From: Phycisphaerae bacterium
Lineage (GTDB): Bacteria; Planctomycetota; Phycisphaerae; UBA1845
Length of the DNA: 64,000 nucleotides
NCBI GenBank assembly: GCA_029260165.1
Contig: JAJDDT010000073.1
Location: 1-64,000 of the forward strand
Direction: 5' to 3'
Shown here: positions 10,801-30,271 of the stretch, in pieces
How the letters are laid out: every line of letters starts with the position of its first letter
Position numbering within the stretch: position 1 is the stretch's first letter
Notes under the pieces: generated by a model
Told to the model about the DNA's origin: nothing
The model's database searches: none
What the model saw: only the letters and a program-made list of their open reading frames with translations
Program-made: the position numbers and the translations under genes

Positions 10801-13273
10801 TCCCCGTCGTCGTAAACTGCAACATGCCCGAGCAACTCGCCGTGTGCACAAACCATGTGTCGCTCGTCGACAAAAACGCACAGGACACCTGCAACTCCGT
10901 CCCAAACCCCGTGTTGTTCGCCAGATTCGTCCCCTCAAACGCATCCGCCGCATCAAGACAGTTGTCCGCACACGAAGGATCAAGCATCCCGACACAGTTG
11001 CCCGCACCATCACACTCGTCCACACCAACCCCAGGCTCACCCGTACCCGTACAAGGCAACCCATCGTCACACACCACCGCCGCACTCACCGGCGGATGCG
11101 CACAAACACCAGCCCCATCGCACTCATCGTTCGTACACTCCTCGCCATCATCCGGACAGGATGTCCCCAACGGCGCAGGCGGATGCGCACAGATGCCCGC
11201 ACCATCACACTCATCCACCGTACAATCGTCACCATCATCAGGACAGGTCGTCCCCGTCGGCGCAGGTGGATGCCCACAGGCACCAGCCCCATCGCACTCA
11301 TCCAGCGTACAATCATCCCCGTCACCCATACACGCCGTCCCCGACGGCGCCGACGGATGACCACAGACACCCGCCCCGTCGCACACATCAAGCGTGCACT
11401 CAATACCATCGTCCGCACACGCGATACCACTCGCCGCAGGCGGATGACCGCAAACACCCGCACCATCACAAACGTCCTGCGTGCACACATCACCATCGTC
11501 CGTACACGACGTCCCCGCCGGCAGCGCACAGGTATCATTCAACTCATCGCAAAGATTGGCGCACTCACTGCCACCAAAACACGGGTTCCCCGAACTGTTC
11601 GAGCAAACACCACCCGAACACGAATCCGTACCATTGCAAAACACCCCGTCATCACAAGGACCGACGTTGTTCACCGGAACACAAACACTGTCCACGCAAA
11701 TCTCGTCCGTGCACGGATTACCGTCTTCAATGCAATCCGTATCAACCATACAGCCCTGACACATGTTCAAAAGCTCATTGCACACCATCCCCATCGCAAC
11801 ACACGGATCTCCCGCATGATCGGCACAACCACCCGCACTGCAGGTGTCCGCCCCGTTGCAGAACAACCCGTCGTCACACGGATCACTGTTCGGCGAATTC
11901 ACGCACACCCCGCTCACGCACGCGTCATCCGTACACGAATTCCCGTCATCCTCGCAGGCAATCCCGTCCATGCGCGCAGACCAGCCATTCAAACTCAATA
12001 CCGGATTGCACTCCTCACAAGCGTTCGCAGGATTCACCACACCCGACAATCGACAAATTCCGTCAATCAGACAATTCCCCGCCTGAAGAATATTGTCACA
12101 GGAATTCGTCCCCTCATTGCAACTGTCCGCCGTACAAGGCCTGCCATCATCACAATTCGTGGGACCTCCCGGATCACACAACCCGCTCTGACATCGGTCA
12201 TTTGTCGTGCAAAACGCCCCGTCATTGCAGGACGTTCCATTGGCTGCATCACGAGGCAGACAACTCCCCAACCCGTCGCATGTGTCAGGATCCGTGCATA
12301 GAGTATTGACCGGGTTACCACAAGGCGTCCCCGATGGAGCGTCAGGACCAGGCTGACACACACCCCCCAGGCACTGCTCAAGACCATTGCAGTTAACCCC
12401 GTCGTTGCACGTCGCATCATCAAGACACGCAACACAACTGTTCAGCGTCTCATCACAAAACGGCAACAACGGATCAGTACACGGACCCACCCCCGCCTGA
12501 CACAAATTACTCACACAGGACGCCGTCCCCGTACAAAACAAACCGTCATCACAATCAGCAGCCGTGTTGCACTGAATCACCGTCACCGCCAACCGATCCA
12601 GCGTAAACGGCACCAAACCCTTAGGCCCCGTCAATCTCGTAAGCACCTGCGGACACCCCTCGCCCGCCAGGCAAATCGGACTCACCACATAGCGACCTGC
12701 CGCATCCGCCGGTATCGTAAAGCTCAAATTTGAAACGTACCGAAACGAACCAAAACCACTGGCCGGAGAACCAAACGCAACGCCGCCGCCGCGCGGCAGG
12801 ACCACAGTGCATTCGTTCCCCACACAGGACGAATTCCCTATCGGACAATCCGAAAACAACGTGCACGGCAGATTCGCAGCACACATCCCCTCGTCAACCG
12901 TCGGGGAAAACCCCGCACCCACCCCAAGCCAGTCAGGCCGCGTCGTATCAACTTCCATCGAACCATCAACAACGACATTCGGAATAAACGTCCCCACATA
13001 TTCCATATCCCCGAATCCCGCCGGTACACTCGAATAGGTGCAACTCCACGCCGCCTCCCAACCCAAAAGAAACAACGCATTCTCAATGTACAACTCAACA
13101 TCAAGCTGCGTCCCCGCATCCCGCGTGATCTCAAGATCAGTCCCCTCCACCGTCGTCGATGGATCAACCCCGACAGGAACCAAAACCATCCTGTTCAGTG
13201 TCTGACCAAACGACAAACCCGAAGAACAACAAACCACCAACAACGTCAAATTCAAAACCCTGAGACCTGCCAT
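7889..13273 (-). CDS. Giant secreted Cys-rich repeat protein with dockerin-like end
   Basis: The product is 1,794 residues from ATG 13273 (AAGGGG lies upstream; GTG 13279 is also possible). Domain order: signal peptide (MAGLRVLNLTLLVVCC...); a ~200-residue cohesin-like beta domain (DLEITRDAGTQLDVELYIEN); long Cys-rich segments built of CDDGLFCNG-type units; five 29-residue units with CDGAGVCGHPP; a PPC-like beta domain (TSDTWFVHTASC); fifteen 31-residue units with CDNPDTCDGAGVC; two dockerin-type segments (DITGDGFVQTDDILCVVMAFG and a PDGFIQTSDIL copy); a CCVVGDPC block; and a second cohesin-like domain near the C-terminus. No membrane anchor is seen. Cys spacing suggests many disulfides, so an extracellular location is likely. 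It may be a stalk or matrix protein; the role is unknown. Confidence 0.8.
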   Translation of the reverse strand: MAGLRVLNLTLLVVCCSSGLSFGQTLNRMVLVPVGVDPSTTVEGTDLEITRDAGTQLDVELYIENALFLLGWEAAWSCTYSSVPAGFGDMEYVGTFIPNVVVDGSMEVDTTRPDWLGVGAGFSPTVDEGMCAANLPCTLFSDCPIGNSSCVGNECTVVLPRGGGVAFGSPASGFGSFRYVSNLSFTIPADAAGRYVVSPICLAGEGCPQVLTRLTGPKGLVPFTLDRLAVTVIQCNTAADCDDGLFCTGTASCVSNLCQAGVGPCTDPLLPFCDETLNSCVACLDDATCNDGVNCNGLEQCLGGVCQPGPDAPSGTPCGNPVNTLCTDPDTCDGLGSCLPRDAANGTSCNDGAFCTTNDRCQSGLCDPGGPTNCDDGRPCTADSCNEGTNSCDNILQAGNCLIDGICRLSGVVNPANACEECNPVLSLNGWSARMDGIACEDDGNSCTDDACVSGVCVNSPNSDPCDDGLFCNGADTCSAGGCADHAGDPCVAMGMVCNELLNMCQGCMVDTDCIEDGNPCTDEICVDSVCVPVNNVGPCDDGVFCNGTDSCSGGVCSNSSGNPCFGGSECANLCDELNDTCALPAGTSCTDDGDVCTQDVCDGAGVCGHPPAASGIACADDGIECTLDVCDGAGVCGHPSAPSGTACMGDGDDCTLDECDGAGACGHPPAPTGTTCPDDGDDCTVDECDGAGICAHPPAPLGTSCPDDGEECTNDECDGAGVCAHPPVSAAVVCDDGLPCTGTGEPGVGVDECDGAGNCVGMLDPSCADNCLDAADAFEGTNLANNTGFGTELQVSCAFLSTSDTWFVHTASCSGMLQFTTTGSEFDTVMTVFGACGGVELACDDDGGPGLASAATIAVVAGEDYFIRIAGFNGATGNALVNITRQDTCLIGGTCFAVGAVNPANECEACAMSPGAVDWSPRGKGTACGSGVPDDVQCDSPDSCNGMGVCEPNHKPAGAMCGDPTDTDCDNPDTCTGLGFCQVNLELVGFACGDPGDTDCDNPDTCDGAGVCLTNFEPVALACGSQADTGCDNPDTCDGVGACLDNFESVGFMCGSPANSECDNPDTCDGVGLCLANNEAMGTTCGLPGDSECDNPDTCTGTGLCSSNFEPVGLGCGSQADTGCDNPDTCNGAGGCLTNFESTGFACGSPADTDCDDPDSCDGSGTCLPNFELVGLNCGDPLDTDCDNPDTCDGAGICLDNLELVGFGCGDPADSECDNPDTCNGGGTCLDNLEPNGTTCGDITNDDCNNPDSCDGSGVCLNNFETFGTTCGSPGDTVCDNPDSCDGSGLCLPNFESNGLVCGDPTDRECDNPDSCDGFGACSPRDEVSGFPCGDPLDTDCDGADTCDGSGVCLQNFTLIGAFCGNGSDTDCDNPDSCDGGGSCLVNFEPEGLVCDDLDVCTTADVCTLGVCQGTFVPEVPVAVATGVRYFEVTPGPAGSSQLQSLLVTSSDFPCLSVYIQADGSLGDVPVFMTADAWGTVVVSDRDVIPNSLYSVQSECGSNRSLASTLETFRWGDITGDGFVQTDDILCVVMAFGGDFEPQCGNRLLNDLVPCEPDGFIQTSDILAVVVAFGDPDYPCATPCGGGACCVVGDPCVIATSATCPAPGTFVGEGVDCIPVDPCAGPSAAAGDSAVVSLDFSVREGRVLPGGRVTVDVSGSGNVFVRGFELGLDVLGGNSGGLKLVDAFVDESRRDWLFGGTMGFGLADVRGSGRVGGVGFDGGWFGRSSYLGTVVYEVSPDASGVFAIGLSGGRTEFHGAGGVVVEPTSPVLTVEVSGAVRVRGSESPTSLRK
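9078..10466 (-). repeat. Fifteen tandem 93-bp units (31 residues each)
   Basis: Each unit encodes a variant of CDNPDTCDGxGxCLxNFE followed by about six residues and CGxPxDTD, with four Cys per unit. I count 15 units, and the span divided by 15 gives 93 bp. Units differ at DNA level by many substitutions, so the array is not a recent expansion, although some neighbours are closely similar. Confidence 0.9.
11085..11518 (-). repeat. Five tandem 87-bp units (29 residues each)
   Basis: Each unit encodes CDGAGxCxHPPAxxGTxC, then xDDGxxCTxDE. Five consecutive units fill the interval with a fixed 29-residue period and four Cys each. They are related to, but distinct from, the 31-residue units of the same protein. 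Confidence 0.9.
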
Positions 13274-13279
13274 GATCAC

Positions 13280-13645: not shown

Positions 13646-14959
13646 TCAACCGGAACCAGCCGCCCCTTCACGACCCAACGACTCCACCCCATTTGCACCA
13701 CAAAGATAAACGCGGTTTTTCCCCTCACGCTTCGCACGAAGCAACGCCGCATCCGCCCGATCAAGCAACCCCCGCGCACCAACCGCATCCGCCGGAAACG
13801 ACGCCAACCCACCGCTCACCGTCAGCCGCATCCCCTCAGGCAACCGCACATGCTCAAACCGGTGCGACCGCAACGACTCCCGAAACCGATCAATAATCGG
13901 CAACACCGACCGCGGATGAGACGAACCCACCACACGACGCCCACCCTTGTCCCAAAACACCACCACAAACTCATCACCACCAAACCGGGTCACCACATCA
14001 TGCTCGCGACAATTCGCCCGAAACAACCGACCACACCCCCGAATAATCTCATCACCAGCCCCATGCCCACACTCGTCGTTGTATCTCTTGAAACAATCAA
14101 TATCAAACATCAACAGCGTCACCTCACCACCATCACGCGCCACATTCGCCAGCAACCGCTCCAAAAACGTCATCAGATAACGACGATTCGGCAATCCGCT
14201 CAGCGAATCCGTGTACGCCATCTCACGATACCGCCGCTGATCAACACCCGCCCTGATCAACTCACCCAACAAACCCGCATAACCCGCCAACCGACCCGCC
14301 ACATCATCACCATACGCACCCTCCGAACAACGACCCAGCACCACATGACCCAACGATCGCCCCCCACACAATATCTGCTCACGCAACACCGGATCATGCG
14401 ACGACTGACCCGACGTCGCCGTCGTCCCATCAACCACCACCGCCGCACTCTCCGCCCCAAACGCTGTCCGAACCATCTCCGCCAACCGACCCAACAGCTT
14501 TGAAGGCGTCGAACCCAGTTCCCGCGCGACAACACCCATCGCACGCAGTTCCGCCTCGCTCATCCCACAACATCCCCGTTCCCCAGCCAAAACACCCCCG
14601 TCAATCACCGCCGAAAACTCGTCCGCATCAATCGGACAAATCACATAATCATCCGCACCACAAGTCAAAACCCCACGCGTCACAGGCTCACCCTCCGGAT
14701 AACAACACAACACAATCCGACCATCACCAAACGCCTCACGCATACCAGCCACTGCCTCCCCGGGTTGCGACTGACCCATCCCCACATAACCCAGGACCGC
14801 CTCAAACGATCCCGAACCCGCCTCAGCTATCCCCTCCAGATAATTCCCCGCCACCGTCACCGACCACCCCGACAACGTCCCCACAACCGACGCGCACACC
14901 GACTCATCGTCACAAACAAACAGCAACCGACGACCCTCGTCCGCACCGCTCGTCATCAC
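13646..14959 (-). CDS. Diguanylate cyclase with degenerate receiver domain
   Basis: The product is 437 residues. The N-terminal ~120 residues fold like a response-regulator receiver (LLFVCDDES, then GADDYVICPI), but the phosphoacceptor region (VLGYVGMGQ) has no Asp and the conserved Lys is missing. A linker region follows (~140-245). The GGDEF domain starts near 250 (DSLSGLPNRR) and keeps substrate and metal residues (FDIDCFKRYND, GHGAGDE), the active GGDEF motif at 327-331 and an RxxD inhibitory site (REHD, 318-321). It should make cyclic di-GMP and be product-inhibited. A small insert (KGGRRVVGSS) follows GGDEF. The start codon overlaps the stop of the upstream gene (ATGA). Confidence 0.9.
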   Translation of the reverse strand: MMTSGADEGRRLLFVCDDESVCASVVGTLSGWSVTVAGNYLEGIAEAGSGSFEAVLGYVGMGQSQPGEAVAGMREAFGDGRIVLCCYPEGEPVTRGVLTCGADDYVICPIDADEFSAVIDGGVLAGERGCCGMSEAELRAMGVVARELGSTPSKLLGRLAEMVRTAFGAESAAVVVDGTTATSGQSSHDPVLREQILCGGRSLGHVVLGRCSEGAYGDDVAGRLAGYAGLLGELIRAGVDQRRYREMAYTDSLSGLPNRRYLMTFLERLLANVARDGGEVTLLMFDIDCFKRYNDECGHGAGDEIIRGCGRLFRANCREHDVVTRFGGDEFVVVFWDKGGRRVVGSSHPRSVLPIIDRFRESLRSHRFEHVRLPEGMRLTVSGGLASFPADAVGARGLLDRADAALLRAKREGKNRVYLCGANGVESLGREGAAGSG

Positions 14960-19616: not shown

Positions 19617-20231
19617 TTATGACCGCAGCCGTCGTTTCGTTTTTCGCAACATGACGACGCCAACGGCGAGAATGGCGATGCCCGCCGGTTCGGGGACGAC
19701 AAGGATCGTGTGGTTCAGGCTTCCCTCGACGATTTCAACTAATTCAAAGTTCTCGTCCACCAGCGGCTGGCCGTCATCATCAAGGATCAATTCAAAGGTC
19801 TCTCCAATGGACAATTCATTGCCGTGGGCGATCAACGAGAATGTGGCCACTTCGAGCGTGCTGCCTGGCGGGAAAGGAACGCCGGCAGCAAATGCGAAGG
19901 CTGCGACACCGGGAGGGTCACTGATTGACCATTTTTGCGGATCCGAGGCACCTGGAAACACCCATTCCCACGATTCAAACGTAACGATATCGTCAATGGA
20001 AGGAACAAGGCCATCGAAATTGAATCCGGTCAACGCTGGGCCCGCGATCTCAGCGGGGCCTTCGTTGATAACGGAAATGGCGAAATCGGTTTCTGTATCA
20101 AGGGGTATGGTGAGTTGGCCACTGTCAGGAGTGACGCCGCCTTCAATCACGAATCGTGCCTGTCCGAAGGTTTGCGACGAAACAGCAACGGCAAGACAAA
20201 CTGCAAAAGCATGCGTACAGCGACTTTTCAT
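19617..20231 (-). CDS. PEP-CTERM sorted exported protein (intact paralog)
   Basis: The product is 204 residues from ATG 20231, chosen because CAAGGGAGCACCGAA precedes it and a signal peptide (THAFAVCLAVAVSSQTFGQA) follows; the open frame extends 34 codons further upstream. The mature domain resembles that of 18954 and is a clear paralog of 23290 (QARFVIEG, LTIPLDTETDFAISV, NEGPAEIAGP, SWEWVFPGA). The C-terminus keeps LVVPEPAGIAILAVGVVML and a basic end. It is probably exported, processed by exosortase and surface-associated. Family C palindrome copy 1 lies 126 bp upstream. Confidence 0.85.
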   Translation of the reverse strand: MKSRCTHAFAVCLAVAVSSQTFGQARFVIEGGVTPDSGQLTIPLDTETDFAISVINEGPAEIAGPALTGFNFDGLVPSIDDIVTFESWEWVFPGASDPQKWSISDPPGVAAFAFAAGVPFPPGSTLEVATFSLIAHGNELSIGETFELILDDDGQPLVDENFELVEIVEGSLNHTILVVPEPAGIAILAVGVVMLRKTKRRLRS

Positions 20232-20356
20232 TTCGGTGCTCCCTTGCTCGAAAATGTGGCTCGCCGATGTACTTCCCGAGCCTAGCCGACTGGGTGATGT
20301 AAACCAAGGGAAAAGGTGCGGAAAATCGCTCAATTGAGCCGGAAGCCAGAGGAATC

Positions 20357-20389
20357 GTCAGGTTCGCTTCGCTTAACCTGACCTACCTG
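20357..20389. repeat. Palindromic repeat family C, copy 1
   Basis: GTCAGGTTCGCTTCGC then TTAACCTGACCTACCTG. The stem is TCAGGTT/AACCTGA with a 10-base loop. An identical 33-bp copy stands at 23948-23980. This copy ends one base before the stop codon of the FAD oxidoreductase gene (20390), so it may terminate that transcript. Confidence 0.9.
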
Positions 20390-22039
20390 CTAAGGAACTC
20401 GGTATCCCGTCAGTGCTTCAAACATCAATGACGCGGTCTGAAAACACACCGAGACGCCGGGCAGTCCCACCGTGGCACATCCTATGGCGACATTTTCGAC
20501 GGCGAACCTGGGTGTGGCACTTCGAAGAACACTTTGGGGCGTCAATCGCCTACCATAGACGGAACCCTGTTCACTCGCGAGTTCCAATTGCAGATCATAA
20601 GGCGAGAGCACCATCATCTCTCTCAAATGCTCGCCGACATTCGGGAATAGTAATCGCTCAAGTATTTCGATGACCGACCTCGCGGCCTGCCCCTTTACAT
20701 CTTCGTAATAACTCTCCCCAACAGAGAATGCTCGCTCATATGCCGAGAAACTTCCCGGGCTGAAAACGGTGAGACCAGAAAGCTCTGGTGTCCCAGAAGC
20801 CAGCACGGGACTATTGGCGGTGTTCGAACCTATATAAAGATGCGTTGGCGGCTGACTGATGTCAATTGGTGAGAAGTCAATCTCGCTGTCCGCTGCAAAG
20901 TACCAGTAGTTGCGCCGAGCTAAGCGTGCTTCTATTTCCGCATAGTCATTTACTGTAAAGAAAAAGCTAGTCAGAGAGCGCGACGGCTCATAATCCCGCA
21001 ATACACACTTGGGAACCTCATCGAATAACGCACACGTCAGCCCAGGCGAAAGGGTGCTTACTACAAAGCTACAAGGTATCGCGGTTCCATCATCGCACTG
21101 AACTTCCCGTACCCGATTGGATTCAACGCGCAATCTGGACACTCGCCTGTTAAGCTGTATCTCGCCTCCATGCACTTCGATCGCATCGCCAAGATAACGC
21201 ACTAAACTGCCGAAGCCGTTTTTTGGGAAACACGCTCCTTCGTGCAGGAAACCCGTTGCGGCGACATATACTCCTAAAGAAATAGCGTCAACATTCTCCG
21301 CGAAAATCCCAGCATGACCGTAGAGTAACCGCCGCACTGAATCGGGCATGCGACACCAATCAAAGACCTGACCAAGCGTGAAGTTTGCGAATCTAAACAC
21401 AATCCCTTTTGATTGCTCCGAAATTTCCGAGCTCGACAATACCGCCTGCCACATTTCGACGAAGCCTTGGAGATACAGACCTCGCTTGTATATAAGCCTC
21501 AGGCCATCAAGGAGTCCACCAAAAATCTCAAAGAAAAGTTCGATTGAATGCTCTGCGTCTAGATTTCGCGAGATAAGCGCATTCTTCCACCGATCCGAGC
21601 CCAGTGGTACAGCGAACGGCTCCGCACCGTCAGTGATAATGTTCTCGAATCCGTCTACGTCCATCGAATCAAGCGGAACTTGACTCGCATCACCAAGGTA
21701 TCGAAGCACCCTTGAGCCGATCTCGTCCTGGCCAAAATTCCACAAATACTGGGGCCCAGCAGAAAATTCCAGGCCACCCACTTCCAGGATTCGAGCGTGC
21801 CCTCCGACTAAGGAAGGGTGTGACTCAAGCACAACTACAGAGTGACCGATTCTCGCCAACAATCCCGCCAAGCAGAGGCCAGTCGCTCCAGAACCGATAA
21901 TCACGATAGGCAACGACTCTGTGGAGTGCAAGTCCTCACCCGCCCAGTAGGGCGGCTCGAAGCAACCCGAAATCGTCCCGCTCATCGTAATCGCCAAGAA
22001 CTCTCTTCGGCTCAGACCTACTCGGTAATCCATGACCAT
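20390..22039 (-). CDS. Tat-type FAD-dependent oxidoreductase (phytoene dehydrogenase-like)
   Basis: The product is 549 residues from ATG 22039, which follows GGGAGAAGGGGTT. The N-terminus has a twin-arginine motif (LSRREFL, residues 9-15) and then a lipobox-like ISGC (23-26), so it is likely exported folded through Tat and lipid-anchored. Residues 45-75 form the dinucleotide-binding fold (IVIIGSGATGLCLAGLL, with an acidic residue ending strand 2), followed by GGHARILEVGGLEFSAGPQY as in phytoene desaturase/amine oxidase families. The C-terminal FAD motif is around VAIGCATVGLPGVS. The substrate is unknown. The gene is visibly more A+T-rich than its surroundings and overlaps the upstream membrane-protein gene by 22 bp, suggesting a co-transferred pair. 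Confidence 0.8.
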   Translation of the reverse strand: MVMDYRVGLSRREFLAITMSGTISGCFEPPYWAGEDLHSTESLPIVIIGSGATGLCLAGLLARIGHSVVVLESHPSLVGGHARILEVGGLEFSAGPQYLWNFGQDEIGSRVLRYLGDASQVPLDSMDVDGFENIITDGAEPFAVPLGSDRWKNALISRNLDAEHSIELFFEIFGGLLDGLRLIYKRGLYLQGFVEMWQAVLSSSEISEQSKGIVFRFANFTLGQVFDWCRMPDSVRRLLYGHAGIFAENVDAISLGVYVAATGFLHEGACFPKNGFGSLVRYLGDAIEVHGGEIQLNRRVSRLRVESNRVREVQCDDGTAIPCSFVVSTLSPGLTCALFDEVPKCVLRDYEPSRSLTSFFFTVNDYAEIEARLARRNYWYFAADSEIDFSPIDISQPPTHLYIGSNTANSPVLASGTPELSGLTVFSPGSFSAYERAFSVGESYYEDVKGQAARSVIEILERLLFPNVGEHLREMMVLSPYDLQLELASEQGSVYGRRLTPQSVLRSATPRFAVENVAIGCATVGLPGVSVCFQTASLMFEALTGYRVP

Positions 22040-23100
22040 AACCCCTTCTCCCACAGTAGGGCAATTAGCGGTGAGACCAGTGCTATTAGATATGCCGTGC
22101 TGTACTGAAAATCATAGGGCCATGTATTCATACGAAGCACCAGCTGCTCTCTTGCCTCCAACCTGTCCAACAACGCTACGATATTCGCTATTTGATTATT
22201 CTCTTGAGATTGCGCAAGATCTACGCGATCAAGCGTTGAATACAACTTTTTTGCCTCTTCTCGTAGGCCGGACAGCGTCTTGCTCCGATACGCCGACAAG
22301 AGTGCGTGAACTCTGAGTACAGGAAGCAGGAAAACTGCGATCGAACATACAAAGGGAAAGGCCATCCATGCAATGATCAGCGTTCTAACAGTAGTGTTCG
22401 ACCCGTAGCGCCAGGGCGAAACATATATGTATATCGCAATAAAACATCCCATTATGAGTGTATAGATCGCAAAATAAAACAGCACTTTGCCGATTACAAA
22501 AGATCCGCCGCACTTGTCCGGATGAAGATAGTCAAAATCCAGGTCCTCCTCGTGCCCCACTTTGATTGTGAGATAGAGCACACCATAGATTCCCCGCACT
22601 GCAAGTCCGCAGACGAACCCGACACAAAAATACTCACAGAGAATAACTGCCACAAACCAGAGGTTATCGTACCACAGACCAAAGCAATACCCCAGAATAG
22701 TATTCATTGCGCCAAAAATTATGCCGCTCATCACAAGAGGAAAGTTTGCTAAGAGGGTGCCCAAGCGTTGCGAGTATTTCATCTTGATAGTGTCATTCAC
22801 CAGCACATCTAGGCTTGAAGTGAATTCCCTTAGACGTGCTGTGGCCTTGAAAACCAGCAAGGAACACATTCCAATCATAGCGCCGACCATCCAACTATGA
22901 TCGCCCAGTGGATTGAGTCCCAACCAGCCCAAAGCTCCAATCTGCACAAGCGAGAATGTGAGTCCAGCAAGCGCAGATAAGACAAGCTCATGGACTTTTA
23001 GATGGTTCCGAAAAATCTCATAGAACGTTTTTCTCGAATCCGTGTGCGGCCCAAGTGTCGTCGCGTTTTCCTCCGGAGATGCATGTGGACTATCCATCAT
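22018..23100 (-). CDS. Polytopic membrane protein of unknown function
   Basis: The product is 360 residues from ATG 23100; a TTG at 23127 after GCAGGAG is an alternative start. After a polar N-terminus, I count about seven hydrophobic segments: near 45 (LSALAGLTFSLVQIGALGWL), 70, 120 (FPLVMSGIIFGAMN), 145 (LWFVAVILCEYFCVGFVCGL), 205, 240 and the C-terminus (YLIALVSPLIALLWEKG). The segment around 290-325 is a soluble helical stretch (LREEAKKLYSTLDRVDL). No family recognised. It overlaps the start of the oxidoreductase and shares its A+T-rich composition, so both probably work together, the membrane protein perhaps as a redox or substrate partner. Confidence 0.65.
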   Translation of the reverse strand: MMDSPHASPEENATTLGPHTDSRKTFYEIFRNHLKVHELVLSALAGLTFSLVQIGALGWLGLNPLGDHSWMVGAMIGMCSLLVFKATARLREFTSSLDVLVNDTIKMKYSQRLGTLLANFPLVMSGIIFGAMNTILGYCFGLWYDNLWFVAVILCEYFCVGFVCGLAVRGIYGVLYLTIKVGHEEDLDFDYLHPDKCGGSFVIGKVLFYFAIYTLIMGCFIAIYIYVSPWRYGSNTTVRTLIIAWMAFPFVCSIAVFLLPVLRVHALLSAYRSKTLSGLREEAKKLYSTLDRVDLAQSQENNQIANIVALLDRLEAREQLVLRMNTWPYDFQYSTAYLIALVSPLIALLWEKGLWSWITE

Positions 23101-23289
23101 ACTTCCAGTCACCGGCCTTTCCGGCAACTCCTGCTGCCTCTACTTAGCACCTTTGCCCGGCCTGCACGAAAAGCTGGGACACTAACGATTCTTCTTGGTC
23201 CGACCAGACTAAGGTAGCGCGCGCACGACGAAGCTTCAATGACGTAATCTATCAACGCTGGTGAATTATCCGGCGGCCAGCCGTGTTCG

Positions 23290-23805
23290 TCAATGAAGTC
23301 CGGAGAAGCCATCGGGGCTGTGCGTCACGACATTCTGGAGTTTTGTGCGCGAATTCTCGCCACCATTTTCGGTGTGCTGGTCCACCGATTCCTGCGCGTT
23401 CGGTTTGTTGGCTGTAACTCTCTTCGGTTCCAGATGTGGAAACGACAAACCGAGTGCCATGGTAGCTGCCTGCGGACTCGGGAGGCCCACTGTCGCCCAA
23501 AGAATGTGATTGTCCGCGTTGGGAAATATCCACTCCCAGGATTGCAATGCAACGTTGTCACCTGCCGACGTGGATATTCCGGCGAAGTCCAACAAGGTCA
23601 GCCTGGGGCCTGCGACTTCGGCTGGGCCTTCGTTGAATACGGAGATGGTGAATTCGGTTTCGGTGTCCAACGGAATTGGAAGATGGCCTGATAACGGTGT
23701 GGGCAGGCCGTCCCCCTCGACGATGAATCGTGCCTGTCCGAAAGTTTGGGTCGAGATGACAAAAACGGAACAGAGTGTCAAAGCGTGCGCAAGGGGAAAT
23801 TTCAT
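23290..23805 (-). pseudogene. PEP-CTERM paralog that lost its sorting tail
   Basis: The frame has 171 codons from ATG 23805 (GAGGGAGTACCGAA upstream). The signal peptide and residues ~20-120 are a clear paralog of 19617 (QTFGQARFIVEG, LPIPLDTETEFTISV, NEGPAEVAGP, SWEWIFPNADN). Similarity ends near residue 123 (about 23437). The remaining ~48 residues (HLEPKRVTANKP...) are unrelated, polar, and have neither the LSIGE motif nor PEP-CTERM, hydrophobic helix or basic end. I see no frame in which the missing part resumes. The product would be secreted without anchoring, or is dead. The break faces the A+T-rich island. Confidence 0.7.
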
Positions 23806-23947
23806 TTCGGTACTCCCTCTTGAAACCCGGCTCGCGCTCCGTCCTGCTTGTAGCGATAATCGTGGCCCGGATGCAAGCAAAAACAGGGGAGAATCGCTCA
23901 ATTGAGGCGGAAGCCGATATTCTTCCCTCTTGACACGCAGAGGAATT

Positions 23948-23980
23948 GTCAGGTTCGCTTCGCTTAACCTGACCTACCTG
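23948..23980. repeat. Palindromic repeat family C, copy 2
   Basis: Identical over 33 bp to 20357-20389 and in the same place relative to its gene: upstream of a PEP-CTERM paralog (143 bp from the start here, 126 bp there), with matching flanks (CGCTCAATTGAG and AGAGGAAT). It marks the upstream regions as duplicated. The rest of 23806-24119 holds nothing else I can name. Confidence 0.9.
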
Positions 23981-24119
23981 TTCGCAGTTGGGGCCATTTG
24001 ACGGTGTTGGGGGATCGTATTCTTCCGTCCGGGTAACTAAAGCGTGGGGTCGGCGATGACGAATCGTTTGTGGGGAAGGTTTGCGCGGTTGTTAACTATC
24101 GGACGTACTGGAGAATTCG

Positions 24120-24422
24120 ATGCGTATTGTGACCGGTGAGCATGATGGCCGCACGGTGCTGGAGTTGAAGGCTGACCTTGTGGGACAGGGTGCGGAGGTA
24201 TTGACGGAGTCGGTTGGTCAGGCGTTGGAGCAGGAGAAGTTCGATCTGACGATCGACATGCACGGTGTGTCGATGGTGGACAGTCTGGGTCTGGAGGCGC
24301 TTCTGGCAACGGTGAGGCGGTGCGGGTCGCTGGGCGGGACCTGTCGAATTGAGAAGGCGAGTCTGAAGATCAAGAACATTTTTCGAATCACACGGTTGTT
24401 GAAGGATATTGAGGTTGTTTAG
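24120..24422 (+). CDS. STAS-domain anti-sigma factor antagonist-like protein
   Basis: The product is 100 residues, a single STAS domain. The N-terminal strands (RIVTGEHDGRTVLELKADL) are followed by the central SpoIIAA-type motif (DMHGVSMVDSLGLEALLAT) with the phosphorylatable Ser at residue 56 in the D-S-x-G-L context, and a terminal helix (NIFRITRLLKD). Such proteins bind anti-sigma factors or other partners when unphosphorylated. It is the first gene of the pilus operon, 16 bp before PilB, so it may gate pilus assembly or its transcription. The ribosome site is CTGGAGAATTCG. Confidence 0.85.
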   Translation: MRIVTGEHDGRTVLELKADLVGQGAEVLTESVGQALEQEKFDLTIDMHGVSMVDSLGLEALLATVRRCGSLGGTCRIEKASLKIKNIFRITRLLKDIEVV

Positions 24423-24438
24423 GGGATAGAGGTTGACG

Positions 24439-26166
24439 ATGGCGGCGGGAACGAAATCGTTATCGATCGGTGAGCTGTTCGTTGAGAACGAAGTTGTCAC
24501 GAAGGCTCAACTGGAGGAGGCGCTGAGCGCGCAGTCCTCTTTGGGTCTTCCTCTGGGCGAGACACTGATTCGCCTTGGGATGGCGACGCCTTCGCAGGTT
24601 TTCCCGATTTTGCAGTCGCAGATGAACGTGCCCTGGGCGGACCTGTCGGAGGGTCTTGTGGATTCGCGCGTGGTGTCACTGATTCCGCGTGAGAAGGCGG
24701 AGCGGTACGGGGTTCTGTCGTTGTTTCGGGTGGAAGAGTCGCTGACGGTGGCGATGCACGATCCGCGTGCGATTTTCGTGATTGATGAGTTGGAGCAGAT
24801 CACGGGGTTGCGCGTGTTTCCGGTGCTGGTGTCGCAGACGGATGTTCGTCAGGCGATCAATCGTTACTACGCGGAGACGGCTGGGGACGAGGTGGAGGAT
24901 CGGTCGGACTCGGCGGAGACGTCGGCTGGTGGTGACAGTGCGGGGGCATTTCTGACGGAGACTGATGAGGGTGAGGGTGAGCAGGAGGCAAGTCCGGTCG
25001 TTCAACTGGTGAACGTGATGATGTCCAACGCGGTGAAAGAGGGTGCGAGTGATATTCATGTGGAGCCTGGGCGGACGCACACGAGCATTCGGTTTCGGAT
25101 AGATGGTGAGCTTCGTGAGGTGATGACGCCGAAGCTTTCGATGCACAAGTCGCTGATATCGCGTTTGAAGGTGATGACGAAGATGGACATCGGTGAGCAG
25201 CGTCGTCCGCAGGATGGTCGGATGATGGTGTGTGTGGAGGGTCGCAACATTGATGTTCGTGCGGCGAGTATGCCGACGTCGCGGGGTGAGAAGCTGGCGT
25301 TGCGTATTCTTGATCGTGACAACCTGAAGCTGGATTTGAAGACGCTGGGGATGCGTGCCCACCTGATCAGGCAGATTGAGACGATATTGGCGCGTCCGAA
25401 CGGAATGATATTGGCGACGGGTCCGACGGGATCGGGCAAGACGACGACGTTGTACTGTTTGTTGAACATGTTGCGTGGTGTGGAGCGGAACATCGTCAGC
25501 ATCGAGGATCCTGTGGAGTATGAGCTGGAGCTGGTGAATCAGGTTCAGTTGAATGAGGCGGCGGGATTGACCTTTCCGTCGGCGTTGCGGTCGTTTTTGC
25601 GGCAGGACCCTGATTTTATCATGGTGGGCGAGATTCGGGACACGGAGACGGCGACGGTGGCGGTTCAGGCAGCTCTGACGGGTCATCTTGTTTTGAGCAC
25701 GCTGCACACGAACAGTGCGGTGAGCACGGTGGCGAGGCTTATCAATGTTGGGGTTGATCCGTCGATGACGAGTGCGGCGATGACGGCGGTGATTGCTCAG
25801 CGACTGATTCGAACGAACTGCGCGAAGTGTGCGGAGCCTGACCTGCCGTCCGATGAGTTGTTGGCGACTTGTGGTATGGAGGCGTCTGATCGTGCGGGGA
25901 TGATGCGTGGTGCGGGTTGTCCGCAGTGTTTTGGGAGCGGGTTTCGCGGTCGGTGTGCGGTGCACGAGATTCTGGTTTTCGATGAATCGTTGCGTCGGGC
26001 GGTGAACGAGCGGGCTGATGTCACGACACTGTCGCATCTGGCGAAGAAGTCGGGGATGGTGAGCATGTTTGAGGGGGGTAAGGAACTGGTGCGTACGGGT
26101 CGGACGAGTTTGCAGGAGCTGGTGTCTGTGGTTGGTGTTGAGGCTTTGGTTGAGGAGAAGGGATGA
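24439..26166 (+). CDS. pilB: Type IV pilus / type II secretion assembly ATPase (PilB/GspE)
   Basis: The product is 575 residues. ATG 24439 follows AGGGGATAGAGG. The N-terminal MshEN-type domain (residues ~5-150; IGELFVENEVVTKAQLEEAL, WADLSEGLVDSRVVSLIP) is a possible cyclic di-GMP site, of interest given the GGDEF gene nearby. The secretion-ATPase core has Walker A (GPTGSGKTTT near 327), an Asp box, Walker B (IMVGEIRDTETA near 395) and a His box (ALTGHLVLSTLHTN). The zinc tetracysteine is CAKC (~460) and CPQC (~494). It powers pilin extension at the inner membrane. It is followed with 4-bp overlap by PilT. Confidence 0.93.
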   Translation: MAAGTKSLSIGELFVENEVVTKAQLEEALSAQSSLGLPLGETLIRLGMATPSQVFPILQSQMNVPWADLSEGLVDSRVVSLIPREKAERYGVLSLFRVEESLTVAMHDPRAIFVIDELEQITGLRVFPVLVSQTDVRQAINRYYAETAGDEVEDRSDSAETSAGGDSAGAFLTETDEGEGEQEASPVVQLVNVMMSNAVKEGASDIHVEPGRTHTSIRFRIDGELREVMTPKLSMHKSLISRLKVMTKMDIGEQRRPQDGRMMVCVEGRNIDVRAASMPTSRGEKLALRILDRDNLKLDLKTLGMRAHLIRQIETILARPNGMILATGPTGSGKTTTLYCLLNMLRGVERNIVSIEDPVEYELELVNQVQLNEAAGLTFPSALRSFLRQDPDFIMVGEIRDTETATVAVQAALTGHLVLSTLHTNSAVSTVARLINVGVDPSMTSAAMTAVIAQRLIRTNCAKCAEPDLPSDELLATCGMEASDRAGMMRGAGCPQCFGSGFRGRCAVHEILVFDESLRRAVNERADVTTLSHLAKKSGMVSMFEGGKELVRTGRTSLQELVSVVGVEALVEEKG

Positions 26167-27230
26167 GCGTGTCTGCGGTGGAGATATTGAGGCGTGCGAA
26201 GGACTGTGGTGCGTCGGACGTTGTGCTGATTGCGGATGCTCCGCCGTTCATGCGTCTGGAGGGTGAATGGCGACCTGTTGTCGAGGGGGTTCCGGGGGCG
26301 GATGGGTGCGAGGAGATGATACGGTCGCTGCTGCCGGAACAGTGGCGTGATAATCTGGAGCGTGGTCGGGAGTTGAATTTTTCCCGTCAGCTTCGGGGAC
26401 TGGGGCGATTGCGTTTCAATGTTCATCATCAGCGTGGGACATTGGCTGCGACGATTCGGCTGATCTGGCCTGAGATTCGGACGATGGAGGAGATCGGTCT
26501 TCCGGAGGCGGTGGGGTCTCTGGCCTTGAAGAAGCACGGTCTGATGCTGGTCTGTGGTCGTGCGGGTGCGGGGAAATCGACGACGCTGGCTGCGGTGGTG
26601 CATCACGTTCTGCGGAATCGTCGTGCGCATGTGATCACAATTGAGGATCCGATCGAGTATGTGCATGGAAACGGGATCGGGATTTGCGAGCAGCGTGAGA
26701 TTGAGTCTGACACGCCGAGTTGGCGGGATGGTTTGAAGAATGTTCTGCGTCAGTCGCCTGATGTGATTGTGATCGGTGAGTTGCAGGACAAGGAGAGTAT
26801 TGCGACGGCGGTGACGGCTGCGGAGACGGGTCACCTTGTGCTGGCGAGTGTTCACGCTCAGGACACGATTCGTTGTGTGACGCGTATGATTGATGTTTTC
26901 GGATCGGGTCAGCAGGATCAGATTCGGCTGCAACTGTCGGGGACGCTGCTGGGTGTGTTGGCTCAGGAGCTGGTGCCGACGGTGGGTGGGGATGGTCGCG
27001 TGTTGGCGACGGAACTGCTGGTCGCGAACACGGCGATTCGCAATCTGATTCGTCATGCGGAATACGCACAGATGGGGAATGCGATGCCGGCGGGTCGTAA
27101 CATCGGGATGCACACGATGCAGGATTCTCTGGATAAGCTGTTGTCGCGGGGTCTGATCTCGCAGGAGGAAGTGATCAGCCGGCTGAATGATTGTCGGATG
27201 GCGGGTTCGAAGCAGTTTGCGGGTGTTTAG
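26163..27230 (+). CDS. pilT: Pilus retraction ATPase (PilT family)
   Basis: The product is 355 residues. The N-terminal PAS-like domain (~1-100) has the PilT opening (ASDVVLIADAPPFMRLEGEW). Walker A is GRAGAGKSTT (~132-141), the Asp box IEDPIEYVH, Walker B VIVIGELQDKESI, and the His box ETGHLVLASVHA. It lacks the Cys zinc motif, as PilT does, and is shorter than PilB. Compared with PilT consensus, Walker B has LQD in place of the usual MRD. It likely depolymerises pili, implying twitching or DNA uptake rather than a pure type II secretion system. The start overlaps the pilB stop (ATGA). Confidence 0.88.
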   Translation: MSVSAVEILRRAKDCGASDVVLIADAPPFMRLEGEWRPVVEGVPGADGCEEMIRSLLPEQWRDNLERGRELNFSRQLRGLGRLRFNVHHQRGTLAATIRLIWPEIRTMEEIGLPEAVGSLALKKHGLMLVCGRAGAGKSTTLAAVVHHVLRNRRAHVITIEDPIEYVHGNGIGICEQREIESDTPSWRDGLKNVLRQSPDVIVIGELQDKESIATAVTAAETGHLVLASVHAQDTIRCVTRMIDVFGSGQQDQIRLQLSGTLLGVLAQELVPTVGGDGRVLATELLVANTAIRNLIRHAEYAQMGNAMPAGRNIGMHTMQDSLDKLLSRGLISQEEVISRLNDCRMAGSKQFAGV

Positions 27231-27257
27231 GTTTTGTGTGATTGACGGGGCAGTTTG

Positions 27258-28478
27258 ATGGCAACGATGGTTTACAAGGCGCGTGGGACGAACGGGAAGA
27301 TCGTTCGTGGGAAGATCGAGGCGAGTTCCGCACAGGAGGCGTTGACGCGACTGCGTCGCAGCGGGGTTCAGGTTCTTGCGATTGACAAACCTGGGCGGGT
27401 TTCGGGGCTTGTTGGTGCGCAGGCGCGGACGCTGGGTCGCAAGCGTGTGAAGATGCGTGAACTGCTGTGGACGTTATCGCAAATGCAGTTGATGGTTCGG
27501 GCGGGGACGAGTCTGGATGATGCGTTGAAGATTACGTCGGACTCGACGGACAATCCGACGCTGAAAGGCGTATTGGAGGACCTTCAGAATCGGGTGAATC
27601 AGGGTGAATCGTTGTCGGAGGCGCTTGCGGCTCATCCGGAGGTTTTTGATCCGATCGTGTCGCGGATTATTTCGGCGGGTGAGGCGAGCGGGACGTTGCC
27701 GAAGATGCTGGGGACGGTGCATGATCTTCTGGAGCGTTCGTATGAGACGCGGCGGATGATCATTGGGGCGTTGCTATATCCTGCGATTCTGGTTTCTGTG
27801 GCGGGGATTGCGCTTGCGGTCATGTTCATCTGGGTCCTTCCGAGGTTTGTGAAGGTCTTCAACGACGTTGGGGCTGAGCTTCCGGGTATTACGATCGCGG
27901 TGTTGGCGATCAGTGGGTTTCTCTCCAAATACAAGGTGGTGATTTTTCTGCTGGTTGCCGGTGGGCTGGTGATGGGTTGGCGGTTGCGGAAGAACGTTGA
28001 GGTGGTGTCGAAGGTGACGCGGTTTCTGATGGGGATTCCGGTTATCGGTCCGTTGATTCGGACGGCGAACACTGCGCGGGCGATGGAGTTGATGGGGACG
28101 CTTTGGCGTGCGGGTCTGCCGATAACGGAGGTGACGCGGTTGACGGGTGCGACGATGCGGAACCCTTTGTACGAAGCGTTTTTCAAGGATCTGCGTCAGC
28201 AACTGGTGGATGGGAAGCCTTTGACGTCGGTTTTTCTGGGATGCGATTTGTTTCCCAAATCGGTGGCACCGCTTATCCGGACCGGTGAAACGACCGGTAA
28301 CACGCCTGAGGTTCTGCAATCTCTTGCGCAGTTTCACGATAAGGAAACGCGCGAGCATATCAAGACGATGATTTCATTACTGGAACCAGCGATCATTGTG
28401 GTGATGGCTGGTGCGGTGGGTGTCATCGCCCTTTCGGTGGTGCTTCCACTGTTTCGGTTGTCGAGTGCGGTTCATTGA
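27258..28478 (+). CDS. pilC: Inner-membrane platform protein (PilC/GspF)
   Basis: The product is 406 residues, the usual size. The N-terminus (MVYKARGTNGKIVRGKIEAS) and two T2SSF domains (~70-190 and ~270-395), each with a conserved helical bundle and membrane segments (GALLYPAILVSVAGIALAVM, VIFLLVAGGLVMGW, IIVVMAGAVGVIALSVVLP), are as in PilC. It connects the PilB/PilT motors with the pilin. ATG 27258 was chosen over TTG 27255. It lies 27 bp after pilT in the same operon. Confidence 0.92.
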   Translation: MATMVYKARGTNGKIVRGKIEASSAQEALTRLRRSGVQVLAIDKPGRVSGLVGAQARTLGRKRVKMRELLWTLSQMQLMVRAGTSLDDALKITSDSTDNPTLKGVLEDLQNRVNQGESLSEALAAHPEVFDPIVSRIISAGEASGTLPKMLGTVHDLLERSYETRRMIIGALLYPAILVSVAGIALAVMFIWVLPRFVKVFNDVGAELPGITIAVLAISGFLSKYKVVIFLLVAGGLVMGWRLRKNVEVVSKVTRFLMGIPVIGPLIRTANTARAMELMGTLWRAGLPITEVTRLTGATMRNPLYEAFFKDLRQQLVDGKPLTSVFLGCDLFPKSVAPLIRTGETTGNTPEVLQSLAQFHDKETREHIKTMISLLEPAIIVVMAGAVGVIALSVVLPLFRLSSAVH

Positions 28479-28502
28479 TGCGACGAGACAGGACGGTCTG
28501 GA

Positions 28503-29567
28503 TTGGGAAGCTACTCGCCTATCGGTATTGATATTGGTACGGCTGACATCAAGCTGGTTCAGCTGGTTCGCGAAAAGGGAACGTGGGTTCCGTTTGCGCT
28601 GGGTCTGCAATTGTGGAGTGCGCGTTCGACTGATGACGTGCAGTTCGATGATTGTTTTACGGCGGCGTTGCGGGCTGCTTTTGAGGGCGGGGGTTTCAAG
28701 GGGAAGCGTGCGATTGTGAGTGCTCCGGCGTGTCTGGTGGACATCTGGCCTGTCAAGGTTCCGCTGAGTGAGGGGGTGGATGTTGCGTCGTTTGTTCAGT
28801 CGGAGATTGCCGAGCGGCGTGGTCAACTGACCTCTGATTTTGTCGTGGATTACTGGATCGGCGGGGACACGGTTGAGCATGGTGAATCGAAGATCGAGGC
28901 GTACGCGGTGTCGGCGTCGCATGAGAAGGTTGTTTCGATGGTCCGTGCGGTAGAGAAGGCGGGGATCTGCTGCACGCGTGTTGAGGTGGCGGCCACGTCG
29001 CTGGCGCACTGTGTTGAGCTTGCGGATGAGGAGCCTTTGTTGCTGTTGGATATCGGTGATCGTTCGTCGATGCTGATGGCGATGGACAGTGTGGGGATCA
29101 CGTTTTGCCGTGAGATCAAGTGGGGTGGTCATCATGTCACGTCGCGATTGAAGACGGCTCTTGATATTGATATGGAGACGGCTGCCCAGATCAAGGAGGA
29201 GTGGGGAATTCGTCCGATTTCGGACGCGTCGGGAGCGGACAGTTCGTCGGCGCATCCACGTCAACAGGTGATCAACGATTCGATCGAGCAGGAGATTCGT
29301 GTGCTTGCTCTGGAGATTGGCCGGTCGCTTGCTTATCGCGCGCGCAGCAGTGGTGGTGGGGACAGCAAGGAACTGGCGCTCGTCGGCGGTGGTGCGCGGC
29401 TTCGTGGTCTTGATCGATTTTTGAAGGACGCGTTGAAACTGACGGTGAAATCGGCACCGATCATCTTCCGTGAAGGTCTGTCCAGAAAGACCGAGGATGA
29501 TGGTCTGAACGGTGGGGCTGAGCAGTTTGCCATTGCGACGGGGACGGCGATGACGGGGGTTAACTAA
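28503..29567 (+). CDS. pilM: Actin-like pilus assembly protein PilM
   Basis: The product is 354 residues with an actin/FtsA-like ATPase fold. Phosphate-1 motif GIDIGTADIKLVQLV is at residues 7-21, an inner ATP motif at LLLDIGDRSSMLMA (~180), and the C-terminal adenosine motif LALVGGGARLRGLDRFL (~300). It binds the N-terminal peptide of PilN on the cytoplasmic face. The start is a TTG (28503) after CAGGACGG, as no ATG fits. It is followed by pilN after 2 bp. The C-terminal end (FAIATGTAMTGVN) matches the family. Confidence 0.9.
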   Translation: MGSYSPIGIDIGTADIKLVQLVREKGTWVPFALGLQLWSARSTDDVQFDDCFTAALRAAFEGGGFKGKRAIVSAPACLVDIWPVKVPLSEGVDVASFVQSEIAERRGQLTSDFVVDYWIGGDTVEHGESKIEAYAVSASHEKVVSMVRAVEKAGICCTRVEVAATSLAHCVELADEEPLLLLDIGDRSSMLMAMDSVGITFCREIKWGGHHVTSRLKTALDIDMETAAQIKEEWGIRPISDASGADSSSAHPRQQVINDSIEQEIRVLALEIGRSLAYRARSSGGGDSKELALVGGGARLRGLDRFLKDALKLTVKSAPIIFREGLSRKTEDDGLNGGAEQFAIATGTAMTGVN

Positions 29568-29569
29568 CG

Positions 29570-30271
29570 GTGCAGCGGGTCAATTTACTACCGAAGGAGT
29601 TGCAGAGGCGTCGGTTTCTGATCGACCGGGCGCGATTGTGGGGAATCATCAGCGGGTCTGCTGTTTTGTGGTCGTTGGCGGCGAGCTGGACGCTTGGGTC
29701 GCGGGTGGAACGGCTTCAGGAGCTTATCGGGGCTGAAGAGCAGATGAGCGTTGCATTGTCGGAGGGACGATCGTCGGTTGAATCAATCAGGGTGCGACAG
29801 GGGCGGATTCGCGCGAGACATGATGTTCTTCTACAGGTTGTTGCACGGGCGGATTGGGGTGAGGTTATCGGCCAGGTGGCTGGCGCGGGGGGTGAAGAGG
29901 TCTGGATTCGCGAGTGCAGGATCGAGCGTACGCATCGGCCTGGGGGGTTGAGGAACGGACGTGCGGAGGGGTCGGAGGATGAACCCACGCGGCTTGAGGT
30001 TTCGGGGTATGCGCTATCGAACGCCGAGCTTTCGCGTTTTTTGTCGCGGTTGGGGAGGTGTCGTCGGGTGACGAGTGTTGAGCCGAACAACGTGAATCAG
30101 GAACCGGTGGGCAGGGGGCACCTTGTTGCGTTCAACGTGACGTGCGTGGTTGGTTCTCGAGAGGTTGATCAGGATGCGAGCGTGATGATGGAGCGTGGTT
30201 CGGACGAGACTGTGGCGGGCCGTCCTGATGTTTTCACGATGAACGTGGTCCGGACGGTGAGGCAGCCATGA
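29570..30271 (+). CDS. pilN: Pilus assembly protein PilN-like
   Basis: The product is 233 residues. The N-terminus MQRVNLLPKELQRRR is the PilM-binding peptide of PilN (consensus INLLP). One membrane helix follows (~25-45, GIISGSAVLWSLAASWTLG), then a periplasmic coiled coil and a C-terminal ferredoxin-like domain (RLEVSGYALSNAELSRFLSR). It forms the inner-membrane alignment complex with PilM and PilO. The start is GTG 29570, two bases after the pilM stop, so the genes are translationally coupled. The last ~40 residues are extra relative to shorter PilN proteins. Confidence 0.85.
   Translation: MQRVNLLPKELQRRRFLIDRARLWGIISGSAVLWSLAASWTLGSRVERLQELIGAEEQMSVALSEGRSSVESIRVRQGRIRARHDVLLQVVARADWGEVIGQVAGAGGEEVWIRECRIERTHRPGGLRNGRAEGSEDEPTRLEVSGYALSNAELSRFLSRLGRCRRVTSVEPNNVNQEPVGRGHLVAFNVTCVVGSREVDQDASVMMERGSDETVAGRPDVFTMNVVRTVRQP

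Follow-up and report, generated by a model that had tools for sequence, protein, structure and literature searches.

The locus described here lies on the minus strand between 18.9 and 23.98 kb of a 64,000-bp stretch of DNA (the window; positions 1 to 64,000 of contig JAJDDT010000073.1, assembly GCA_029260165.1) from an uncultured Phycisphaerae bacterium, and contains a two-gene unit coding for a flavoenzyme and a membrane protein. From right to left, the succession was as follows: a repetitive extragenic palindrome (REP2), a truncated PEP-CTERM paralog (B), a dispersed element, the membrane protein gene, the flavoenzyme gene, a second palindrome (REP1), the intact paralog A and a third paralog, C (Table 1). 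A preliminary description had reported paralogs with a common upstream palindrome and, between them, a gene pair of low guanine plus cytosine content (GC); this layout was confirmed by repeats, alignment and composition. The paralogy, the REP family with its REP-associated tyrosine transposase (RAYT), the composition of the pair, its patchy occurrence and the dispersed element at the break of B are directly supported.

Table 1. Features of the locus, in window coordinates
Feature	Position	Strand	Evidence
PEP-CTERM paralog C, 203 aa	18954..19565	-	TIGR02595 20.1 bits (cutoff 16); 39% amino acid identity with A
PEP-CTERM-like paralog A, 204 aa, intact, ends ...VPEPAGIAILAVGVVMLRKTKRR	19617..20231	-	Sequence; TIGR02595 13.7 bits, under the cutoff of 16
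REP1 block, 5' of A; GTAG foot and imperfect palindrome 20357-20386	20347..20389	-	Hairpin of -15.7 kcal/mol
Flavin adenine dinucleotide (FAD) oxidoreductase, Amino_oxidase/CrtI superfamily, with putative twin-arginine translocation (Tat) motif and lipobox	20390..22039	-	PF01593, TIGR02734, PDB 4dgk
Membrane protein, about 7 helices, HPDKCGG loop	22018..23127	-	Distant homologs in genomes G477 and G473
Relic of dispersed terminal element: E 23364-23315 and subterminal F 23404-23379, read as an insertion sequence (IS) end	23312..23404	-	
Truncated PEP-CTERM paralog B, homologous 5' part	23434..23805	-	Alignment to A
REP2 block, 5' of B	23938..23980	-	Repeat comparison
STAS / GspE-PilB-like / PilT-like / GspF-like operon	24030..29719	+	Same-genus synteny; STAS, T2SSE and T2SSF domains

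Judging from sequence divergence, the duplication that gave A and B is old, as had been proposed. Their coding DNA aligned over 297 columns at 66% identity and their proteins were 52% identical over 116 codons, with a nonsynonymous divergence (dN) of 0.38, a saturated synonymous divergence (dS) of about 2.3 and a dN/dS ratio of about 0.17. In the stretch between gene and palindrome, 37 bp were conserved at 84%, a 23-bp indel beside the palindrome excepted. Coding homology of B to A ran from 23805 to about 23469 and ended before the PEP-CTERM tail; the open frame of B continued through the dispersed element to 23290. At E<=1e-3, seven A-like places were found in the genome carrying the window (the source genome, G000), namely A, C, B, one at contig C98:15090 and three at C98:63459-65474, and eight in the same-genus genome (G001); 4 of the 30 genomes searched had any at all. 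Further paralogs of A occurred in clusters, the three on G000:C98 forming one and six at G001:C6:40074-44280 another.

REP1 and REP2 shared GTCAGGTTAAGCGAAGCGAACCTGAC without mismatch (20357-20382 and 23948-23973; none expected from 100 shuffles). The common upstream palindrome with matching flanks thus held, although the length given for it, 33 bp, did not: with its flanks the repeated block measured 43 bp, 42 of them identical. The REP core GTAGGTCAGGTTAAGCG was found at 21 sites (up to two mismatches) in the 4.43-Mb source genome and its reversed control at none. In these REPs an imperfect palindrome bears the tetranucleotide GTAG at its foot, and three inverted pairs were recorded whose starts are 106 nt apart. 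On contig C38, five copies surrounded a single RAYT gene (C38:1296-1844; NF047646 188 bits, cutoff 80; Pfam Y1_Tnp), the nearest ones, at 1247 (+) and 1901 (-), lying 49 bp before the start codon and 57 bp after the stop. The pattern GTAGGTCAGGTYAAGCG, with zero mismatches, was matched in 2 of 51 genomes (16 sites in the source genome, 3 in the same-genus one). PMC3733652 describes GTAG repeats as known from Planctomycetes and the PVC (Planctomycetes-Verrucomicrobia-Chlamydiae) group. The palindrome of the window is therefore a dispersed REP belonging to the GTAG/RAYT population of its genome. As a mark of the duplication, for which it had been taken, it is not private to that event, but its position and flanks do fit: REP1 and REP2 occupy equivalent places 5' of A and B, with 3 and 10 flanking bases in common and one differing. 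Being 98% identical against 66% for the coding DNA, both REPs fit a duplicated unit, yet their similarity is unusually high, an effect that could stem from constraint, conversion or re-insertion. A second conserved block was observed between REP and gene in A and B (20320-20347 and 23888-23915; 93% over 28 bp). Each copy contains a 12-nt palindrome, GCTCAATTGAGC or a close variant of it, and the block is possibly an operator.

The cut end of B abuts the element that we named E/F. The region 20300-23480 was searched at the DNA level against 100 genomes (the source genome plus 99 of the same genus, family and order), with up to three candidates scored per genome, and matches were assigned to E or to the adjacent F by query range, an assignment that is our own. 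The stretch at about 23302-23402 recurred on contig C26 of the source genome (90% over 58 bp). E was present in 15 of the 99 other genomes, F alone in 4 more, and an E profile built from 15 copies in other genomes gave two matches on 410 kb of source-genome sequence, C26 (4e-15) and the window (2e-14). Among 24 E loci examined for transposases, corresponding to 20 distinct places since four were present twice, a transposase-like frame started 98-131 bp inward of E at three places. One of these frames displayed rve and HTH_28 domains with IS481 as best match (69.5 bits, under the cutoff of 224), and in this copy F lay directly inside E, which is also their order in the window. The other two frames were related to each other and weakly or not recognised. 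Since E adjoins such frames at some places and F keeps the order of the IS481-like copy, the window copy is read as the relic of an IS end, fused to B by its inner side, with the B frame running through it. The tail of B was probably lost through this IS.

Several observations weigh against an IS origin. No transposase adjoined E at 17 of the 20 places, and the transposase-like frames of loci L095 and L098 had no Pfam match, so that E could also be a miniature inverted-repeat transposable element or another dispersed sequence. Neither a target-site duplication nor a second IS end was demonstrated for the E element; at L112, a clear second end was not seen and the transposase was shortened beside two frames resembling IS21 genes (by eye). 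In our count, contig ends fell within 1.1 kb of E on the inward side at 7 of 19 places and on the outward side at 3 of 19, which is only suggestive of a repeated IS body. The proposal that a foreign module had inserted and removed the tail of B is thereby divided: the gene pair does look foreign, but the cut end abuts an IS-end-like dispersed element, so that arrival of the pair need not have removed the tail. An integron attC site was rejected for E because the R-box pattern, judged by eye, was not kept, and viral contigs contained no exact copy of the E consensus. Adjacent tandem copies of E were seen beside a frame that, judged by eye, is group II intron reverse transcriptase-like (L107 5500-5823 and L106 4464-6137), and in the same-genus genome E adjoins a phage-type integrase gene.

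By its motifs and profile matches, the first protein of the gene pair is a member of the flavin amine oxidase/CrtI superfamily: PF01593 scored 60.5 bits (cutoff 19.8), the FAD-binding glycine motif GSGATG...VLES was found, the best match in PDB was the CrtI structure 4dgk (2.9e-10) and TIGR02734 (crtI_fam) gave 80.4 bits, under its cutoff of 238.1. Start candidates are ATG 22039, ATG 22033 and GTG 22054. SRREFL and TISGC are visible in the sequence at the N-terminus; we take them to be a putative Tat motif and lipobox. Seven plasmid records encoded relatives at 21-25% identity; none was found in phages, and no close relative was confirmed in GTDB or viral contigs. Carotenoid genes were not recognised in the neighbouring frames scanned.

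The second protein displayed about seven hydrophobic segments, in keeping, together with the motifs above, with the Tat lipoprotein flavoenzyme and seven-helix protein earlier predicted for this pair. Its gene starts between 23100 and 23127 and overlaps the flavoenzyme gene by at least 16 bp, which suggests coordinated translation. No Pfam family matched it up to E 0.1, the best NCBIfam value being 0.089. Among 392 genomes of the phylum, homologs were found in G477 (29% identity, 1e-39) and G473 (27%, 3e-34), while G366 and G185 matched more weakly. Five aligned members of this family gave no Pfam family above cutoff, and their profile retrieved no noteworthy solved structure; single-sequence structure prediction was poor (predicted local distance difference test, 50). 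No close relatives were confirmed in GTDB contigs, viral contigs, plasmids or phages. Distant relatives with a common HPDQxGG motif and no Pfam match above cutoff were also seen at L078 (1288-2562) and L079 (7114-8244), and these proteins possibly form a widespread unnamed membrane family.

Composition was compared with that of 190 largely non-overlapping open reading frames (ORFs) of at least 250 codons from 410 kb of source-genome sequence (median GC 0.580, 0.676 at third codon positions), a set drawn with the window included that may contain the pair itself. The membrane protein gene had the lowest GC of all (0.473) and one ORF scored lower in codon usage; for the flavoenzyme gene (0.521), two and three ORFs, respectively, were lower. 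Both genes are thus among the most atypical, and composition was not uniform, in line with the lower GC first ascribed to the pair. The membrane protein occurred in 1 of the 100 relatives sampled and in 5 of the 392 phylum genomes, and the flavoenzyme (E<=1e-30) in one genome of either sample, the source genome being included each time. The DNA of the pair found just two short matches in other genomes of the relatives sample (25 and 27 bp). With the pair in 0 of 99 relatives, its arrangement is not conserved; composition and patchy distribution agree with the foreign look noted earlier, and the pair was apparently acquired from elsewhere. This should be balanced against other results. A and B also had below-average GC (8 and 15 of the 190 lower, C being ordinary), so that low GC alone does not set the pair apart, and no donor lineage was found. 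In the phylum-wide flavoenzyme search, no more than three candidates were scored in each genome. Furthermore, no flavoenzyme was encoded near the four membrane-homolog loci (16, 16, 4.2 and 16 kb examined), and the pairing may therefore be local.

Other kinds of mobile or functional units were rejected: an integrase-borne genomic island with att repeats (no integrase among six proteins in a Pfam scan of 18.9-24.4 kb; the long direct repeats of 19-24 kb were the paralogs and REPs only) and a defence system (PADLOC gave solely a desaturase-like model, for the flavoenzyme, at E 5e-9). An Rfam scan of 18-25 kb gave no match.

With moderate confidence, we favour a patchwork site assembled stepwise and carrying an acquired envelope redox pair. 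We infer from the above a plastic site, adjoining a type IV pilus/type II secretion-like operon, where a PEP-CTERM-like gene and its upstream REP would have been duplicated long ago to give A and B, C being more distant. An insertion sequence would have landed there next, and a later deletion would have taken its body together with the 3' end of B, leaving an IS-end relic of about 95 bp fused to B. Finally, the two-gene operon would have been acquired on the outer side of the relic, abutting REP1. This operon would most likely be an envelope redox unit. The flavoenzyme, presumably exported by Tat and lipid-anchored, may oxidise or reduce a substrate on the outer face of the membrane; kinship to isoprenoid desaturases and isomerases points to a hydrophobic or amine one. 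The seven-helix protein would be its translationally coupled partner, supplying the substrate, taking electrons or holding the enzyme.

Part of this evidence could be read otherwise. B might have been born truncated, the 5' part of A having been copied with its upstream REP to the right of the pair, so that a full B never existed; A/B homology does stop at the REP in one direction and within the gene in the other. The low dN/dS ratio over 116 codons nevertheless suggests long selection on B as a protein, an argument weakened by the saturation of dS, as the constraint could sit on the A side alone. Moreover, the break falls at the E/F element, so that no partial copy is needed to explain it, and we consider a truncated birth unlikely. 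Slightly less likely still would be a pair native to the lineage and lost in its relatives, with a low GC due to membrane-protein composition or weak expression. AT-richness tends to go with hydrophobic proteins, and the neighbours A and B are low in GC too; yet neither gene occurred in the 99 relatives, the same-genus genome among them, and the flavoenzyme, a soluble protein, also had the third lowest GC and fourth lowest codon score of 190.

REPs on both sides, in a genome with a matching RAYT, may also evoke a single unit moved by the RAYT, with REP1 and REP2 as its ends and the pair and B as its cargo. However, they are in direct orientation and each stands at the equivalent position 5' of a paralog; transposition of a whole REP-bounded block was rejected on these grounds. 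To our knowledge, no RAYT moves kilobase cargo, and we hold such a mobilisation to be very improbable.

The same-genus genome matched the window from 24030 rightward (74.8% DNA identity over 5775 columns) and, within the 12.2 kb fetched, not to the left of this position, divergence beginning about 50 bp outside REP2. As the whole left side differs, neither the empty site nor the full second paralog suggested as a check was visible in this sole same-genus genome. The MgtC protein of the window had no match there at E<=1e-10. From this comparison, the genus seems to have a boundary prone to rearrangement just where the pilus-like operon begins upstream. GC skew passed from about -0.3 to -0.5 at 8-18 kb to about +0.3 at 24-34 kb, turning at the boundary between pair and operon; this could result from a bias in coding strand, from the edge of an inversion or from an origin. 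Further left, an open frame of 1796 codons (7889-13279, minus strand) had no Pfam or PHROGs match and a GGDEF protein was encoded at 13646-14959. A Mu-like prophage was rejected on this side, where PHROGs matches were weak and Pfam gave MgtC and GGDEF instead.

What had appeared as a duplicate plus an island thus becomes a legible patchwork: REPs and the RAYT that goes with them, a scar probably left by an IS in place of a sorting signal, and an operon that seems acquired. The locus is mostly ordinary genome patchwork, and the gene pair itself is uncharacterised. Interest resides in the latter, an operon for a flavoenzyme with putative export signals and a membrane partner whose family is unnamed in Pfam and NCBIfam. 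The pair might represent an envelope redox module not described before, of which it would be the first member seen, made of a Tat-exported lipoprotein flavoenzyme and the unnamed seven-helix family (HPDxCGG loop, TWP motif) and spreading across the phylum via IS-rich sites, a possibility that we consider rather doubtful. A literature search for a possible analogue, a DUF350/spermidine synthase/oxidoreductase system, retrieved none. If the pair turns up elsewhere, genomic context could give its substrate.

Compared with IS3/IS481-type insertion sequences, the window keeps an end alone and the E-adjacent transposase scores under curated cutoffs; the likeness lies in the position of E, which at three of the 20 places is found 98-131 bp outward of a transposase-like frame. 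Paralogs A and C resemble PEP-CTERM surface proteins by C-termini made of PEP, a hydrophobic helix and basic residues, whereas B lacks this tail and A stays under the TIGR02595 cutoff though its motif is visible. In contrast to GTAG REP/RAYT systems, just about 21 copies were recorded here and, of 51 genomes, only two, both belonging to this genus, contained the exact core; the GTAG foot, imperfect palindrome, inverted pairs and REP-flanked RAYT gene are nonetheless those of REP/REPIN (REP doublet forming a hairpin)/RAYT systems. Finally, the flavoenzyme is far under the CrtI, CrtD, CrtO and HpnE cutoffs and bears a putative Tat motif and lipobox, unlike CrtI/phytoene desaturase-like enzymes, with which it shares its FAD-binding N-terminus, the PF01593 match and 4dgk as the top PDB match.

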